A stretch of 64,000 bases of DNA, taken from the NCBI RefSeq assembly GCF_000353285.1, contig NZ_KB731324.1, positions 5,102,577 to 5,166,576 on the forward strand, written 5' to 3'. Origin of the DNA: Leptolyngbya boryana PCC 6306. GTDB taxonomy: Bacteria; Cyanobacteriota; Cyanobacteriia; Leptolyngbyales; Leptolyngbyaceae. Positions 5,593 to 35,656 of this stretch are shown here, in pieces. Each line of letters starts with the position of its first letter. The first letter of the stretch is position 1. Below the pieces are notes generated by a model. That model did no database searches. It was given only the letters and a program-made list of their open reading frames with translations, and had not been told where the DNA came from. Made by a program: the position numbers and the translations under genes.

Positions 5593-5813
5593 CTTAGAGA
5601 ATGTTTGAAAAGATATCGTTCATTGCACTCACCCACCCCCGGACTGGAAGTCGGGGCTAGTTGAACGAAGTCCACTAAAGGGACTAAAAGCCCATCAAAA
5701 TCAGGTCTTCAGTCCTTTTCAAAGGACTTCGCACCGTTAGCCCCGGACTGGAAGTCCGGGGCGAGATAGAACGGAGCAAGGAAACGATTGATACTTCTCA
5801 AACATACTCTTAG
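5593..5813. repeat. MITE-like structured repeat, copy 1
   Basis: This 221-bp element has imperfect terminal inverted repeats of about 20 bp: CTTAGAGAATGTTTGAAAAG at 5593-5612, and its counterpart, reading CTAAGAGTATGTTTGAGAAG on the minus strand, at 5794-5813. Inside are four hairpins: CCCCG-GACT/AGTC-GGGG, AGTCC/GGGACT, AGTCCTTT/AAAGGACT, and a perfect GCCCCGGACT/AGTCCGGGGC. No coding capacity was seen. A second, partly truncated copy lies at 31869-32073. It looks like a non-autonomous transposable element or a structured RNA carried by one. Confidence 0.75.
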
Positions 5814-26865: not shown

Positions 26866-27123
26866 TTAACCCCGCAGGAGTTGGTCATATTCCGCATGGG
26901 TTCCAATCCAAAACCATGCAATGTCGTCACCTTCTTCAAGTGCTAGTGCGCGATAGTGTAGCCCGATTCTGACTGACCAGAATTGCCCGACTTTTTTGAA
27001 GTGCAATAATGGATAGCGAGAATCCTGCTTGAGTAATTCGTAACAGCGATCGGCAAGTTCCTGAATTTCTTCGGGCAATTGTCGATAGCAGTACCAGAAA
27101 TCAGGAGTCGCGCGATATCTCAC
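26866..27123 (-). CDS. RelE/ParE-like toxin
   Basis: The 85-residue protein has the fold signature of ParE/RelE toxins. It has an N-terminal helix pair (DFWYCYRQLPEEIQELADRC), a strand around YPLLHFKKVGQFWSVRIG with the characteristic basic/aromatic core, and a C-terminal IAWFWIGTHAEYDQLL with the His-x-x-Tyr/Asp ending. It could be a ribosome-dependent nuclease or gyrase inhibitor. It overlaps its presumed antitoxin gene by 4 bp, the usual coupled arrangement. Confidence 0.8.
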   Translation of the reverse strand: MRYRATPDFWYCYRQLPEEIQELADRCYELLKQDSRYPLLHFKKVGQFWSVRIGLHYRALALEEGDDIAWFWIGTHAEYDQLLRG

Positions 27124-27338
27124 AGGTCAGTACAGTTCTCTTCTCGTAAATGTTGTCGCGCTCGTTCAGCTAAGTGATTGAGCTTTCCGGCTGCTACATC
27201 TTCTTCAAATTGCCGATCCCACAGTTCTGCATCAAATTCAGCAAACCAGATCCGAAAAGCAGCGAGTTCTTCGGCAGACAATTGACGCACAGCCAGTTCG
27301 ATTTCTTCTAAGTTCTTCATATGCTCAAACTTGGTCAT
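27120..27338 (-). CDS. Antitoxin partner of the RelE/ParE-like toxin
   Basis: This 72-residue acidic helical protein (LEEIELAVRQLSAEELAAFR, then WDRQFEEDVAAGKLNHLAE) precedes the toxin with a 4-bp overlap. The pattern of an N-terminal helical segment followed by DAELWDRQFEEDVAAGKL is common in antitoxins paired with RelE/ParE toxins. A second in-frame ATG at 27320 (MKNLEEI) is an equally good start. Confidence 0.75.
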   Translation of the reverse strand: MTKFEHMKNLEEIELAVRQLSAEELAAFRIWFAEFDAELWDRQFEEDVAAGKLNHLAERARQHLREENCTDL

Positions 27339-29577: not shown

Positions 29578-30030
29578 TCAAGACAATAACTTTGGATCGT
29601 CTTTCGGTGGATGCCATCCAACTTCTACCCAAGATTGTCGAGAATTTTGAATAAAGCCCTGATTGTGGTCATCATCATTCAGATCAAGTCTTTTACAGGT
29701 TGCTCGACCTATCGGAGTGACTCCTAAGATTCTCAAGCCATCGGCAGTCCAAATAAAATGCTTCTCCCAATCCTGAGTTCTGGGATTAAACAGAGGAACT
29801 TCTTGATTGGTTTCTGGATCAATACCCGTGATGAAGTTGTAGCGATAGAAGTTACAGCGTTGACACGCATAGGCAAGGTTATCGATCGCATCAGAACCGC
29901 CTAAAGATTGAGGAATTAAATGATCGATCGTGAATGGGGTCGCGCTGGTGCGTTCTAGGGAGTGGCAATATTCGCAGAGGAATTTGGCTCGTCGCCGGAC
30001 AGATTGTCGAGTGAAGTCGTTGATTGCCAC
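29578..30030 (-). CDS. HNH endonuclease
   Basis: The 150-residue protein has a zinc-binding CEYC near residue 19, the catalytic segment TPFTIDHLIPQSLGGSDAIDN and a second CQRCN. This is a complete HNH fold with the His-Asn-His-like metal site. The C-terminal part (FNPRTQDWEKHFIW) is common to cyanobacterial HNH proteins of unknown target. Its 5' end overlaps the preceding gene by 76 bp. No start downstream would keep the first zinc pair. Confidence 0.85.
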   Translation of the reverse strand: MAINDFTRQSVRRRAKFLCEYCHSLERTSATPFTIDHLIPQSLGGSDAIDNLAYACQRCNFYRYNFITGIDPETNQEVPLFNPRTQDWEKHFIWTADGLRILGVTPIGRATCKRLDLNDDDHNQGFIQNSRQSWVEVGWHPPKDDPKLLS

Positions 30031-30263
30031 AATTCGGAAGCCAGTTTGGTATTCACAAAGCTAAAAATGCGATTGAGTTCTAATAATCCCATCATTTCGG
30101 CTTCTTCTTCTTCTGAAAGCGTTCGCTGTTTCCGTCCTTCAAGCAAAAACTCTAGCCGTGCCTGAAGTTCATCAGTGAAATAGAAAGGACGGAAGCGATC
30201 GCTCGGATTCAATTTAATTCCATCGAATAGCCAAGACGAGGGCTGCTTCATAACCTGATTCAT
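29955..30263 (-). CDS. Hypothetical partner of the HNH nuclease
   Basis: This 102-residue protein has a good Shine-Dalgarno (AGGAGAT) before the ATG at 30263. The middle is helical and acidic (LEFLLEGRKQRTLSEEEEAE, then MMGLLELNRIFSFVN) and the tail is low complexity (SGDEPNSSANIATP). The family is not recognised. The 76-bp overlap with the HNH gene suggests translational coupling. It may be a regulator or antidote of the nuclease (inference). Confidence 0.65.
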   Translation of the reverse strand: MNQVMKQPSSWLFDGIKLNPSDRFRPFYFTDELQARLEFLLEGRKQRTLSEEEEAEMMGLLELNRIFSFVNTKLASELWQSTTSLDNLSGDEPNSSANIATP

Positions 30264-30490: not shown

Positions 30491-31657
30491 ATGACTTCAC
30501 CTCTTTCATTGTTTTATTCCTATTCTCATCAGGATGAGGATTTGCGCGATCGACTTGAGACGCATCTTGCAACGCTGAAGCGACAGAATTTGATTCAGCA
30601 GTGGCACGATCGTAAGATTTTGCCGGGTGAGAAATGGGCGGGAAAAATTGATGAAAATTTGGAGTCGGCAGAAATTATTTTGTTGCTGATTAGCTCTGAC
30701 TTTATTGCGTCGGCCTATTGTTTTGAGTTGGAAATGACGCGGGCGATCGAGCGACATAAGGCAAAGGAAGCGATCGTAATTCCGATTGCGCTTCGTCCTG
30801 CGGATTGTACAGGGCTACCGTTTGCTGAGATTCAAGGATTGCCGAAGAATTTTAAGCCTGTAACGACTTGGAACAATCAGGATGAGGCGTTTTTGAATAT
30901 CGTGACTGGAATTCGGGCAGTGGTTCAGCACATTCAGGCACGAAAAGCGGTGCGATCGCTGAAAAATCCGTTTGAGCCGCTGAGTGGCAGGGTCGATGAT
31001 CCGATGCAGTTTTTTGGACGCGATCGTGAATTGCAGCGAATTTTTGAATTGTTGGAAAGTCGCAATAGTGTGGCGGTGATTGGCGATCGAGAAATTGGCA
31101 AATCGTCTTTGCTGCGGGCGGTTTATCGCGATTGTCAGACACGGTTGGGGCGAGTGCCGATTTATCTGGATTTGAATTCGATCGAGAGTGATGAAGATTT
31201 TTATGAGGAGTTGTGTCATCAAGCAGGGGTGGCGACTTGTCAGGGGGCGCGGCTGAAGCGATCGCTCTCTGCTAAGCGGTTGGTCTTGCTGCTGGATGAG
31301 GTGGAGAAGATGACGTGGCAGGGGTTTACGCATGGACTGCGATCGCAGTTGCGGGGATTAGCAGAGGGGGCGGATGCGCCGTTGCGGTTGGTGTTGGCGG
31401 CGGGGAGTTCGCTGGATCGGTTGTTTCCAGATGGGCAGGATGGGATGACTTCGCCGTTGGCGGGGATTTGTTTGGAGGAGAGAGTGGGGAGATGGGGAGA
31501 TAGGGAGATGGGGGAATTTGTGGCAAGAAGGCTGCGGGGATTGCCGATTCAGTTTACGTCGGAGGAGATTGAGCGATTGATTGAGGAGAGTGGGGGGTAT
31601 CCGAAACGGTTGATGCGGGGAGGGTACGAGTTATTTCGGCAGTATCAATACAGGTAG
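30491..31657 (+). CDS. TIR-STAND NTPase
   Basis: The 388-residue protein has a TIR domain (about 5-140) and a STAND-type P-loop NTPase (about 170-380). The TIR part has SLFYSYSHQDEDLRDRLE, WHDRKILPGEKW and SAYCFELEMTRAIERH, with the presumed catalytic Glu at 81. The NTPase has FFGRDRELQ, Walker A GDREIGKSS (Lys204) and Walker B LVLLLDEVEK (Asp269-Glu270). Bacterial TIR domains often hydrolyse NAD+ after infection sensing, so an abortive-defence role is plausible (inference). A purine-rich mini-repeat is inserted in frame near residues 332-341. There is no C-terminal sensor-repeat domain, which is unusual. No Shine-Dalgarno was seen. Confidence 0.85.
   Translation: MTSPLSLFYSYSHQDEDLRDRLETHLATLKRQNLIQQWHDRKILPGEKWAGKIDENLESAEIILLLISSDFIASAYCFELEMTRAIERHKAKEAIVIPIALRPADCTGLPFAEIQGLPKNFKPVTTWNNQDEAFLNIVTGIRAVVQHIQARKAVRSLKNPFEPLSGRVDDPMQFFGRDRELQRIFELLESRNSVAVIGDREIGKSSLLRAVYRDCQTRLGRVPIYLDLNSIESDEDFYEELCHQAGVATCQGARLKRSLSAKRLVLLLDEVEKMTWQGFTHGLRSQLRGLAEGADAPLRLVLAAGSSLDRLFPDGQDGMTSPLAGICLEERVGRWGDREMGEFVARRLRGLPIQFTSEEIERLIEESGGYPKRLMRGGYELFRQYQYR
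31483..31514. repeat. GGGGAGATGGGGAGA mini-repeat inside the TIR-STAND coding region
   Basis: This purine-rich tract, the complement of the CCCCATCTCCCC class, is read in frame as RVGRWGDREMGEF near residues 331-343. It mirrors the insertion in the neighbouring NTPase gene. Confidence 0.7.
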
Positions 31658-31868: not shown

Positions 31869-32073
31869 CTCAAGAGGATGTTTGAAACGTTTCGTTCATC
31901 GCATTCACCCGCCCCCGGAATAAAATTCGGGGCTAGTTGAATAAAGTCTACTGAAGGGACTAACAGCCAATTAGAATGGGGTCTTCAGTCCTTTTCAAAG
32001 GACTTCGCACTGTTAGCCCCGACTTTCAGTCCGGGGCGAGCTAGAACGGAGCTACACAACCAAACAAGGAAAC
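31869..32073. repeat. MITE-like structured repeat, copy 2 (right end altered)
   Basis: This copy matches copy 1 at 5593-5813 along most of its length. It shares the left terminal sequence (AGAGGATGTTTGAAA), the AGTCCTTT/AAAGGACT hairpin and the GCCCC...GGGGC stem. The first hairpin has GAAT/ATTC where copy 1 has GACT/AGTC, a compensatory pair change. The right terminal inverted repeat is missing, and a short insertion follows GAACGGAGC. Confidence 0.7.
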
Positions 32074-32461: not shown

Positions 32462-35290
32462 ATGAGCCAATCTCAACCCGTTCCTAAGCTTGATCTCGCC
32501 CCAAAGCTGCGTCGTCCGCTCTCGCTGTGGAACCCGTTGGATTATGTGCGCTTGTTGTACTGGGTGTTCTACTTTCCGCAGGCACTCCGATGGTATGTAA
32601 ATGAATTTGCTTGGAAGGAGACAGACTTCAGTGATACCAAGCTTTGGCGCGAGAAGCTGCAATGGGTTTTTAACAATCCCATTCAAGCAAGACTATGGCT
32701 ACAAGGGCTGATTCTGCAAATTGCGGCTCCTTTACTAATCTGCTACGTGCTAGAGATAGCAGGACTATCTGTAAGTTGGTCTGGCGTGGCTTTTGGCATG
32801 GCTTTTGGCATGGCTTTTGGCATGGCTTTTGGCATGGCTTTTGGCATGGCTGGAGGCGTAGCTGGAGGCGTGGCTGGAGGCGTGGCTGTTGGCGTGGCTG
32901 GAGGCGTGGCTGTTGGCGTGAGCGTGGCTTTTGGCATGGCTGGAGGCGTGGCTGGAGACGTGGCTTTTGGCGTGGCTTTTGGCGCGGCTGGAGGCGTGGC
33001 TTTTGGCGTGGCTGTTGGCGCGGCTGGAGGCATGGCTGTTGGCGTGGCTGGAGGCGTGGCTGTTGGTGTGGCTTTTGGCGTGGCTTTTGGCGTGGCTTTT
33101 GGCATGACTTTTGGCACGGCTTTTGACATGGCTGTTGGCGTGGCTGTTGGCGTGGCTGCTGGCGTGGCTTTTGGCGTGGCTTTTGATGTGGCTGTTGGCG
33201 TGGCTGTTGGCGTGGCTGTTGGCATGGCTGTTGGCATGGCTTTTGGCGTGGCTGCTGGCGTGGCTGCTGGCGTGGGTTTTGGCGTGGCTTTTGGCGTGGC
33301 TGTATTACGCCCTGAAAACTGGCTGTGGGGGTTGCGTCCTAGAATACGAAAACTTCGACAGCAACGTTGGTTACTCTCTCACATCACGCCTTTCCCCCTT
33401 CCTGCGGTTGAACAGCAAGTATTTGCCTGGATACAGCAAGATTGGAAAGCTGGCTTAAACGTTGCTAATGAACTCCTAAAGTACACTTTGCAATTTATAG
33501 CTGTCATTCGAGCGGTGAATTCTGCTCTTGCAAGAACTTCTCCTACAACTGCGATCGCTCAAGTTGCCTCTCTCTCTGACACGATTTGGGATCAAACAAT
33601 CGTCAAATACGTTTCTGTTTCACTTAATGCAGCCCTAAAAGCTGAATTCATTAACAAGCTCTTCATCCTGCCAAAATTTGTCAAACGAAAATTACTCAAA
33701 AATATAAACACTAATTTCCAGATTGATTCACCTACCCGTGCTGCTGCGGTCGGTTTTTGGTTTCTCTACCAAAACCATGCCAAAGCCGCGATCGAAGCCT
33801 TCCAAGTCGTCGAAGATCTTCCCCACGGCAAAGAAATGCTTCTGCTCGCCACGATTCTTGATCGTGCCCAAATCTCAGACCTCAACGAAATCGCCTCTCT
33901 CCCCATCCCCCCATCTCCCCACTCCCCACTCCTCCGCCCCGAAAGCTGGAACGCGATCGCCGCCATCCGCCGCGCCTCCGAAGATATCCGCGTCGTCTGC
34001 AATGCCGCCTCTCGAACCGCTAGAGCTTTCGCCTCAAACCGCGCTTTAGGCGATCTCAACTCCATCCTCGAAGCCCCCGACCAACTCCCCAAAGCAGAAC
34101 GAGACTTGATTTTATCGATCGCCCGAACCTGGCGCGATTCTCTTCTCAAATCCGTCGGCGAAATCGGCAGAATCGAAATCCTCAAACCCGTCCAAAACCC
34201 CTACGTCACAGGCGACCCCGTAGAAGGCAGCCTTTTTGTTGGACGCGATGACATTCTCAAACAACTCGAAGAACTCTGGTTCATGAGCGACCAGCTTCAA
34301 TCCGTCGTCCTCTACGGTCATCGCCGCATGGGCAAAACCTCACTGCTTCGCAACATCAACGATCGCCTCGGCTCCAACACTCAGCTAATCTACGTCAACC
34401 TCCTCAACCTCGGCGAAGTCACCCAAGGCGCAGGCGAAGTCCTCCTCTCCATCTGCGACGAAATCGCCCAAGCCACAAACCACCCCGCCCCGTCTGACAC
34501 CGATCTGATCAATCTCCCCTATCCCACCTTCCGCCGCTACCTGCAATCCCTCATCCAATCCCCCGAGTCCAAAGGACTGATCATCGCCCTCGACGAATTT
34601 GAAAAACTCGAAGACCTGATCAAAGCCAACAAACTCAGCCCCGACTTTCTCAGCTACCTGCGCGGACTCGTCCAAATGAGTCCCAAAATTGCCTTTGCCT
34701 TCGCCGGACTCCACACCCTCGAAGAAATGACCGAAGACTACTTCAGCCCCTTCTTTGCCAGCGTCATCCCGATTCGTTTGAGCTTCCTCGATCGAGCTTC
34801 CACCCGCCAACTCCTCGCCAACCCCTCCGACGACTTCCCCCTCGACTACGCCCCCGATCTCTACGACGAAATCTTCGACCTCACCGCCGGACAGCCCTAC
34901 CTCGTCCAACTCCTCGGCTTCCAACTTGTCCGCCGCTACAACGCCCAAGTCTTCGAGCAAGGACGCGACAGATCCCACCAATTCTCGATCGACGACCTCA
35001 CCGCTATTACCGAAAGCTCCGACCTCTACGACAACGGACGCTACTACTTCACCGGAGTCTGGCAACAAGCCGCCCAATCTCCCCCCGGACAGCAAGACAT
35101 CCTCAAAGCGATCGCTCACCAAGGTCTATCCCGCGATGTTCTCTTACAACACTTCGACCCCGCGCAATTTGATACCGCGATCGAAGCCCTTCGCCGTCAC
35201 GATGTCGTTCACGAAGTGAATCAAACTTGGTGCATCAAAGTCGAACTCTTTCGGCGTTGGGTCGTGAAATATGCGATCGAAAATCATTAA
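32462..35290 (+). CDS. STAND NTPase with a long GxAx glycine-zipper membrane repeat
   Basis: This 942-residue protein has four parts. They are an N-terminal region with a hydrophobic helix (about 78-104), a repeat tract of about 43 tetrapeptides (G-V/M-A-F/V/G/A; residues 108-281), a helical middle (about 300-575) and a STAND/archaeal-type NTPase (about 588-870) with a winged-helix-like C-terminus. The NTPase has FVGRD, Walker A GHRRMGKTS (near 620) and Walker B LIIALDEFEK (near 705-714). The C-terminal DILKAIAHQGLSRDVLLQHF looks like a winged helix. Glycine every fourth residue gives continuous GxxxG packing motifs, known in pore and channel helices. A membrane-acting effector is therefore plausible (inference). 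XisI follows after 21 bp. Confidence 0.85.
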   Translation: MSQSQPVPKLDLAPKLRRPLSLWNPLDYVRLLYWVFYFPQALRWYVNEFAWKETDFSDTKLWREKLQWVFNNPIQARLWLQGLILQIAAPLLICYVLEIAGLSVSWSGVAFGMAFGMAFGMAFGMAFGMAGGVAGGVAGGVAVGVAGGVAVGVSVAFGMAGGVAGDVAFGVAFGAAGGVAFGVAVGAAGGMAVGVAGGVAVGVAFGVAFGVAFGMTFGTAFDMAVGVAVGVAAGVAFGVAFDVAVGVAVGVAVGMAVGMAFGVAAGVAAGVGFGVAFGVAVLRPENWLWGLRPRIRKLRQQRWLLSHITPFPLPAVEQQVFAWIQQDWKAGLNVANELLKYTLQFIAVIRAVNSALARTSPTTAIAQVASLSDTIWDQTIVKYVSVSLNAALKAEFINKLFILPKFVKRKLLKNINTNFQIDSPTRAAAVGFWFLYQNHAKAAIEAFQVVEDLPHGKEMLLLATILDRAQISDLNEIASLPIPPSPHSPLLRPESWNAIAAIRRASEDIRVVCNAASRTARAFASNRALGDLNSILEAPDQLPKAERDLILSIARTWRDSLLKSVGEIGRIEILKPVQNPYVTGDPVEGSLFVGRDDILKQLEELWFMSDQLQSVVLYGHRRMGKTSLLRNINDRLGSNTQLIYVNLLNLGEVTQGAGEVLLSICDEIAQATNHPAPSDTDLINLPYPTFRRYLQSLIQSPESKGLIIALDEFEKLEDLIKANKLSPDFLSYLRGLVQMSPKIAFAFAGLHTLEEMTEDYFSPFFASVIPIRLSFLDRASTRQLLANPSDDFPLDYAPDLYDEIFDLTAGQPYLVQLLGFQLVRRYNAQVFEQGRDRSHQFSIDDLTAITESSDLYDNGRYYFTGVWQQAAQSPPGQQDILKAIAHQGLSRDVLLQHFDPAQFDTAIEALRRHDVVHEVNQTWCIKVELFRRWVVKYAIENH
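32783..33304. repeat. 12-nt tandem repeat encoding GxAx units
   Basis: About 43 degenerate copies of a 12-nt unit (GGCGTGGCTTTT, with GTT, GGA or GCT as the last codon) encode G-V/M-A-x. One irregular step occurs near GVSVAF. Because the unit is a multiple of three and lacks stops, several other frames stay open across it; these are artefacts. The + strand is nearly free of A. Confidence 0.95.
33901..33933. repeat. CCCCAT/CCCCACT mini-repeat inside the NTPase coding region
   Basis: The tract CCCCCCATCTCCCCACTCCC and neighbours are read in frame as PIPPSPHSPLLRP (near residues 481-493). It is of the same type as the intergenic heptamer tracts. It appears to be an in-frame insertion into a loop between helices. 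Confidence 0.7.
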
Positions 35291-35311: not shown

Positions 35312-35656
35312 ATGGATAAACTAACTGAATATCCCAAGCTGATTAAACAGATCTTGTCAGGCTATGTAGAACTCTGCAATCGCCGTCCGAATCCAGAAAT
35401 CGAAACATTCTTAATTGTGGATGAACAGAAAGCTCACTACATCTGGATGAATTTAGGTTGGCAGAACGGAACACGGGTTCTTGGATCAACGGTTTACATT
35501 CGACTGCGAGATGAAAAAATTTGGATCGAAGAAGATTGGACAGAAGAGGGAGTCGCGACCGATCTCGTGCGGGCTGGAGTCGATCCAGCAGATATTGTCT
35601 TAGCCTTTCATGAACCTAAGATGCGCCAGTATACAGATTTTGCAGTTGCATCCTAA
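35312..35656 (+). CDS. xisI: XisI-like protein
   Basis: The 114-residue protein matches the XisI family, known as a factor controlling excision of the nitrogen-fixation fdxN element. Recognisable blocks are DEQKAHYIWMNLGWQNGTRV, YIRLRDEKIWIEEDWTEEG and LVRAGVDPADIVLAFHEPKM. XisI is normally encoded beside XisH, but no xisH is found here. It lies 21 bp after the glycine-zipper NTPase stop, on the same strand, so cotranscription is likely. Confidence 0.88.
   Translation: MDKLTEYPKLIKQILSGYVELCNRRPNPEIETFLIVDEQKAHYIWMNLGWQNGTRVLGSTVYIRLRDEKIWIEEDWTEEGVATDLVRAGVDPADIVLAFHEPKMRQYTDFAVAS

Follow-up and report, generated by a model that had tools for sequence, protein, structure and literature searches.

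Gene content of the locus

The sequence analyzed here, referred to below as the window, is a stretch of 64,000 nucleotides from Leptolyngbya boryana PCC 6306 (contig NZ_KB731324.1, positions 5,102,577 to 5,166,576), and all coordinates are window positions. Two genes on the plus strand, designated A and B, encode a TIR-ATPase and a glycine-zipper NTPase. The features of the two genes and of the interval between them are as follows.

30491 to 31657, plus strand: protein A, a TIR-ATPase of 388 aa and proposed effector arm (ORF, Pfam, predicted structure)
30491 to 30955, plus strand: TIR domain, aa 1 to 155, with candidate catalytic Glu81 at 30731 to 30733 (Pfam, relatives, fold)
30959 to 31654, plus strand: short STAND-type ATPase, aa 157 to 388, consisting of a nucleotide-binding domain (NBD) and a three-helix lid without a winged helix; Walker A at 31082 to 31105, Walker B Asp269, and GxP at aa 369 to 371
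31872 to 32052, no strand assigned: dispersed, MITE-like repeat of ~180 bp between A and B, outside the system
32462 to 35290, plus strand: protein B, a glycine-zipper NTPase of 942 aa, probably membrane bound, the partner of A
32462 to 32776, plus strand: conserved N-terminal segment of B, aa 1 to 105, no Pfam match
32782 to 33303, plus strand: 12-bp repeat in 43 copies, encoding the hydrophobic tract of B with Gly at every fourth residue
33401 to 34156, plus strand: all-helical middle domain of B, aa 314 to 565, no Pfam match, candidate sensing region
34223 to 35281, plus strand: complete NBD-HD-winged helix module of B, aa 588 to 940, Walker A and B intact

The gap between A and B in the window is 804 bp and also holds a small reverse ORF. 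Counting itself and matches of every length, the ~180-bp repeat occurs 57 times in the genome, and 17 other copies span at least 160 bp at 79 to 89% identity; a second copy lies at about 5596 to 5777. This repeat explains part of the length of the gap.

Several other genes lie near the pair. A gene of the XisI family (PF08869, 2e-40) is located immediately 3' of B (35312 to 35656, plus strand), and at a related locus (L123) a 112-aa ORF that appears XisI-like by eye lies immediately 5' of B. An HNH endonuclease ORF with weak similarity to PtuB (29578 to 30263, minus strand) and an overlapping 102-aa ORF, which had no family match above the cut-off, form a small unit divergent from A. A ParE-like toxin gene (26866 to 27338, minus strand) and the 72-aa ORF upstream of it are possibly a toxin-antitoxin pair.

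Domains and fold of protein A

The ORF of protein A begins with ATG and has no internal stops. Pfam placed TIR_2 (6.5e-14) and TIR (8.8e-9) matches within aa 8 to 128 and nSTAND1 (1e-7) and AAA_22 (3e-7) matches within aa 169 to 312. The nSTAND1 match (PF20703) scored 32.4 bits, above the cut-off of 27.1, and covers only profile positions 11 to 158 of 379. This profile matched the ATPase at an E value of ≤0.01 in all 35 aligned members of the A family, with scores under the cut-off in several of the relatives. The host genome (7.26 Mb) contains 21 TIR_2 matches.

An initial annotation of this locus had described the TIR Glu and both Walker motifs as intact, and comparison with relatives agrees. 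Loss of the catalytic Glu was looked for in close homologues, and Glu81 was retained in 28 of the 29 TIR relatives compared. Gly198, Gly203, and Lys204 of Walker A and Asp269 of Walker B are identical in 35/35 aligned members (window counted), as is Gly369 of the GxP motif, and P371 is present in 34/35. Walker B Glu270 is a Glu in the window but in just 22 of the 35.

The predicted structure of A (mean pLDDT, 92.4; pTM, 0.68) runs from the TIR domain through a five-strand P-loop domain to three lid helices, of which the final one spans aa 371 to 387, and there reaches the C terminus. Neither Pfam nor the predicted structure revealed a winged helix, TPR, WD40, or other repeat sensor in A, and the earlier description of a 388-residue ATPase protein lacking a TPR or WD40 sensor holds for this intact ORF. 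Among the features of a canonical STAND NTPase, A has a P-loop NBD of the ORC/CDC6 clade with Walker A and B motifs and GxP; a winged helix after the helical domain and C-terminal repeats on the same chain are absent. A also combines the TIR fold with the catalytic Glu, the structural signature of a TIR NADase, and NAD+ cleavage is predicted. The top Foldseek match of A was the plant TIR-NLR RPP1, with a TM score of 0.40 and an rmsd of 18, so the two-domain arrangement of A is not matched. Aligned separately with VIA-align, aa 154 to 388 superposed on ORC2 and CDC6 (ORC/CDC6-type ATPases) and on 2qen with Z scores of 17 to 19, and the TIR domain superposed on the RPP-type TIR 7xoz (Z, 16.5; rmsd, 1.9 over 133); these matches of a predicted structure are evidence of a common fold only.

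A short ATPase family with exchanged N-terminal modules

Searches with A returned many TIR relatives joined to other parts and fewer relatives of its ATPase. A total of 41 A proteins were compared, comprising the 35 of alignment A3 and L138 to L143. Rows left out were L090 to L092 (same genomes as L041, L040, and L042), L144 (on the contig of L048), L122 (a large NACHT-like protein with no B), and L115 (where an intact B follows a fragment of A of only 111 residues). Eight of 15 matches were weak Chloroflexota matches (E values of about 1e-16 to 1e-18); since B was present in none of the five that were fetched, these were taken as a different ATPase.

The C terminus lies 0 to 14 residues past the lid in 39 of the 41 A proteins, and the other two continue into B. 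An NPF motif opens the ATPase module in nearly all members. Because the relatives end at the same place as A, the short length is the norm for this ATPase family, and the possibility that A is a truncation or pseudogene was ruled out. One relative (L106) has a stop within the upstream part of its frame.

The module ahead of the ATPase is swapped among relatives and can be TIR, trypsin-like, CHAT, EAD4, or a short unassigned segment. By Pfam, the 41 proteins include two TIR, four trypsin-like, three CHAT, and one EAD4 type. Two more have an EAD10-like N terminus below the cut-off (one of them also with NNH2 just over it), two have a sigma-region-4-like N terminus (L101, over the cut-off; L093, just below), and two have HTH_31 below the cut-off (L141 and L143). 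The remaining 25 have no N-terminal domain over the Pfam cut-off, and 23 of these, scanned individually, had no N-terminal Pfam match. HTH_26 was found below the cut-off at the N terminus of L040, and L096 lacks an N-terminal module. Many of the N termini without a Pfam domain were judged HTH-like by eye. The catalytic triad of the trypsin-like modules and the His and Cys of the CHAT modules are likewise visible by eye. A Trypco1 gene lies immediately upstream in all four trypsin-type loci (L107, L108, L109, and L121), and trypsin-like peptidases of other conflict systems are likewise found with Trypco1 according to PMC7159879. On a tree of the ATPase (33 rows; L096 and L123 left out), 13 module changes were needed, a count that includes HTH-like labels assigned by eye and a topology in which many forks are weak.

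Protein B

No Pfam match was found ahead of the ATPase in window B, and the only NCBIfam match, far below the cut-off, was to low complexity. Residues 101 to 280 are hydrophobic (GRAVY, 1.67; 77% G/A/V), and 75% of the glycines there have another four residues on, compared with 27% when shuffled. A tract with Gly at every fourth residue is present in many B relatives; few glycines occur in this region in L093 and L100 to L103, and hydrophobicity there is low in L102 and L103. The predicted structure of B (mean pLDDT, 75.1; most of aa 118 to 274 below 50) has a helical domain at aa 314 to 565, followed from about aa 588 by an NBD-HD-winged helix module in which model and fold match put the winged helix at about aa 843 to 940. 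In a fold search, aa 576 to 942 matched 2qen, RPP1, CED-4, and NRC4 with Z scores of 18 to 23. The Walker A Lys and Walker B Asp of B are conserved in each of the 29 aligned rows extending into the ATPase, and mean column identity in the helical domain is 69% (9 rows). No ligand-binding repeat was recognized in B. Three short relatives of 483 to 536 aa (L116, L118, and L119, the last two from one genome) have the hydrophobic tract and helical domain without the ATPase, and no A match was found near them.

Pairing of A with B

A relative of B lies downstream on the same strand, or within the same ORF, in 40 of the 41 A loci, in both Cyanobacteriota and Chloroflexota (34/35 loci of alignment A3 and 6/6 further Chloroflexota loci). 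B or its visible part is the next gene-sized same-strand ORF downstream of A in 36 of the 41; at L098 a 203-aa ORF with no Pfam match intervenes, and at L123 2.1 kb with several ORFs separates the two. A and B are fused into a single ORF in two genomes (L110, 1,120 aa; L112, 793 aa), and neither fusion retains the hydrophobic tract of B or the first half of its middle helical domain. The sole A locus without a visible B (L107) is at a contig end; in that genome, a B (L120) occurs close to where a different contig begins. At four loci (L043, L048, L140, and L142) the contig ends after the N-terminal part of B. In one Chloroflexota locus (L138), B is split into three frames and A is intact. Of 29 measured loci other than the window, 23 have an A-B gap of −77 to +166 bp and 6 have a gap of 351 to 2,081 bp; the overlaps are approximate because start codons were taken as the first in frame. 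Searches that start from A or from its ATPase alone lead to B.

When 386 cyanobacterial genomes were scanned with one profile for each protein, 27 contained A, 29 contained B, and 26 contained the two together, compared with about 2 expected under independence. The sequences behind the B profile (A2) were B's adjoining A, so the B count may favor linked B's. In one of the 26 genomes (G063) A is only a fragment; in the one A-only genome (G052) a weaker B adjoins A (L114, 4.5e-10). Among the B-only genomes, G276 and G350 have B's of 483 to 536 aa in which the ATPase is missing, and G301 is interrupted by a contig end. Distances among the A proteins and among the B proteins of the 26 pairs were correlated (Mantel r = 0.78; 0 of 5,000 permutations as high). 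Taken together, the partnership of A and B is well supported.

No third gene common to all A+B loci was found. Small divergent genes upstream of A recur solely within groups (7 and 4 loci). A protein of 226 to 260 aa is encoded divergently upstream of A at L046, L093 (with one ORF between), L101, and L103, and the three of these four proteins that were scanned had no Pfam match. The pair adjoins LepA in five loci and isocitrate dehydrogenase in four (genes recognized by eye). These contexts are not plainly defensive, and the defensive role proposed in the initial annotation is neither supported nor excluded by them.

A proposed switch divided over two chains

NLR-type receptors are mostly described as one chain that carries effector, switch, and sensor, and the A+B arrangement looks like an immune receptor divided into two proteins. 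We favor, with a probability of roughly 0.55, the reading that A and B are two subunits of an NLR-like switch, with A as the effector arm and B as the membrane arm and probably the sensing arm. The hydrophobic N-terminal tract would place B at the membrane, and B would hold the helical domain and the sole complete nucleotide-binding and winged-helix module. A would contribute the effector, here TIR, on a short NBD and lid lacking its own winged helix and sensor. A trigger read by B, directly or via its helical or membrane part, may open the B ATPase, and opened B could then recruit the NBD of A into a mixed assembly in which TIR domains cluster. Cleavage of NAD+ by the clustered TIR domains, or their production of a TIR-derived signal, would then stop the infected cell in a putative antiphage response.

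Since the N-terminal module is exchanged while the ATPase of A and B stay constant, the core would seem to relay the same event whatever the output. This event may be clustering or unmasking, and for the window version TIR clustering and NAD+ cleavage, leading to NAD+ depletion, are expected. The earlier suggestion that the missing sensor is supplied in trans by the glycine-zipper NTPase finds agreement as to the partner, from the pairing, the two fusions, and the correlated divergence; as to the sensor, B contains no recognized ligand-binding repeat. Judging from the alignment, conservation of the helical domain argues against its being a sensor, as sensors are often fast evolving.

Other observations also count against the divided switch. 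TIR types are just 2 of the 41 A proteins, and the 25 N termini without a domain over the Pfam cut-off, several of them HTH-like by eye, would suit adaptors or DNA binders as well as effectors. The two fusions lack the hydrophobic segment, so membrane anchoring is not required everywhere. In some genomes the pair lies beside housekeeping genes, and the short, ATPase-less B's occur without A.

A fuller version of the switch reading, offered tentatively and with the odds somewhat against it, is a two-gene immune receptor whose effector arm is interchangeable (a TIR, protease, CHAT, or adaptor module joined to an NBD without a winged helix) and whose membrane arm, with a complete NLR motor, is constant; the two arms would co-assemble at the membrane. 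The glycine-zipper tract, encoded by a slippage-prone 12-bp repeat, would be a length-variable part of the membrane arm.

It is doubtful, in our estimation, that B is instead the killer and A its trigger. Here the N-terminal enzyme or adaptor of A would activate B (through a TIR product, trypsin or CHAT cleavage, or an adaptor), and the glycine-zipper segment would permeabilize the membrane. The Gly at every fourth residue in the hydrophobic tract of many B's, the proteases among the A modules, and the short B's that retain tract and helical domain, lack the ATPase, and have no neighboring A are consistent with such a role. However, some B's have few glycines in the tract region, the tract is missing from both fusions, and proteolysis is not an activity of TIR or HTH-like modules.

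A membrane-linked signaling or transcription switch of ordinary physiology, in which TIR, protease, and HTH are outputs unrelated to defense, is unlikely. It would accommodate the sigma-region-4-like N termini, the HTH_31 or HTH_26 matches below the cut-off (L141, L143, and L040), the LepA or isocitrate dehydrogenase neighbors, and the single A match in each positive genome. The distribution of A is patchy (27/386 genomes), however, and TIR, trypsin with Trypco1, caspase-type peptidases, and EADs occur in conflict systems according to PMC7159879 and PMC8195603. That A is a Thoeris ThsB with an extra domain is very unlikely: the PADLOC ThsB model PDLC00420 matches A strongly (4.6e-57), but only in its TIR part, no ThsA was recognized by eye among the ORFs at 24 to 38 kb of the window, and a Thoeris identity is unsupported beyond the TIR. 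Despite the 804 bp with a small ORF and a dispersed repeat between the window genes, the idea that A is a stand-alone TIR-STAND protein with B as a chance neighbor was rejected, as it is contradicted by the pairing across two phyla, the mostly short gaps, and the two fusions.

Comparison with known systems

None of the PADLOC (2023) models searched covers the A+B pair as a system. The best match of A was ThsB, to the TIR alone; the commonest match of the A family was the candidate PDC-S01, which matched the ATPase in 19 of 35 members (2.8e-8 at best), and the best match of B was 4.3e-5. A genome search for STALD, made with ThsA in view, was empty, but its control was likewise silent and the result carries no weight. 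The pair is undescribed among the literature matches listed, and family members may be present in the source data of PMC8195603 and PMC7159879.

Relative to Thoeris, A shares the TIR subfamily of ThsB but has its TIR fused to an ATPase, with no ThsA recognized nearby. Plant TIR-NLRs and bacterial Avs and bNACHT proteins are single polypeptides with a C-terminal LRR, TPR, or WD sensor. A resembles them in the order of TIR and STAND NBD and B in its full NBD-HD-WHD module; in A+B, however, these parts are divided over two genes, with the effector carried by a short ATPase and the complete motor, together with a hydrophobic segment, by a second one, an arrangement common to two phyla. Paired NLRs of plants pass the signal between chains, and A+B, with its varied N-terminal modules, may serve as a simple system in which to study interchain STAND signaling. 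It is also a named gene pair that the PADLOC models leave uncovered.

Published nSTAND1 conflict proteins resemble A in their nSTAND1-matching ATPase and in similar N-terminal effectors and EADs. They carry a C-terminal FGS or lectin-type domain according to PMC8195603 and PMC10907252, whereas A lacks such a domain and instead has B as its partner.

Of the published systems compared, the nSTAND2 two-gene operon comes closest, and A+B departs from its description on several points. Both consist of two adjacent genes that each encode a STAND NTPase, with a variable effector on one. The nSTAND2 operon includes one inactive NTPase, and GT4 or HEPN domains are its most common effectors (PMC8195603). 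Both A and B, by contrast, have kept Walker A and the Walker B Asp. The eroded NTP-binding motifs of the nSTAND2 effector NTPase were not found in A, in which only the Walker B Glu varies. TIR, trypsin, and CHAT are found among the modules of A, where the nSTAND2 operon has mostly GT4 or HEPN, and further differences are the absence of a winged helix from A and the hydrophobic tract and helical domain of B.
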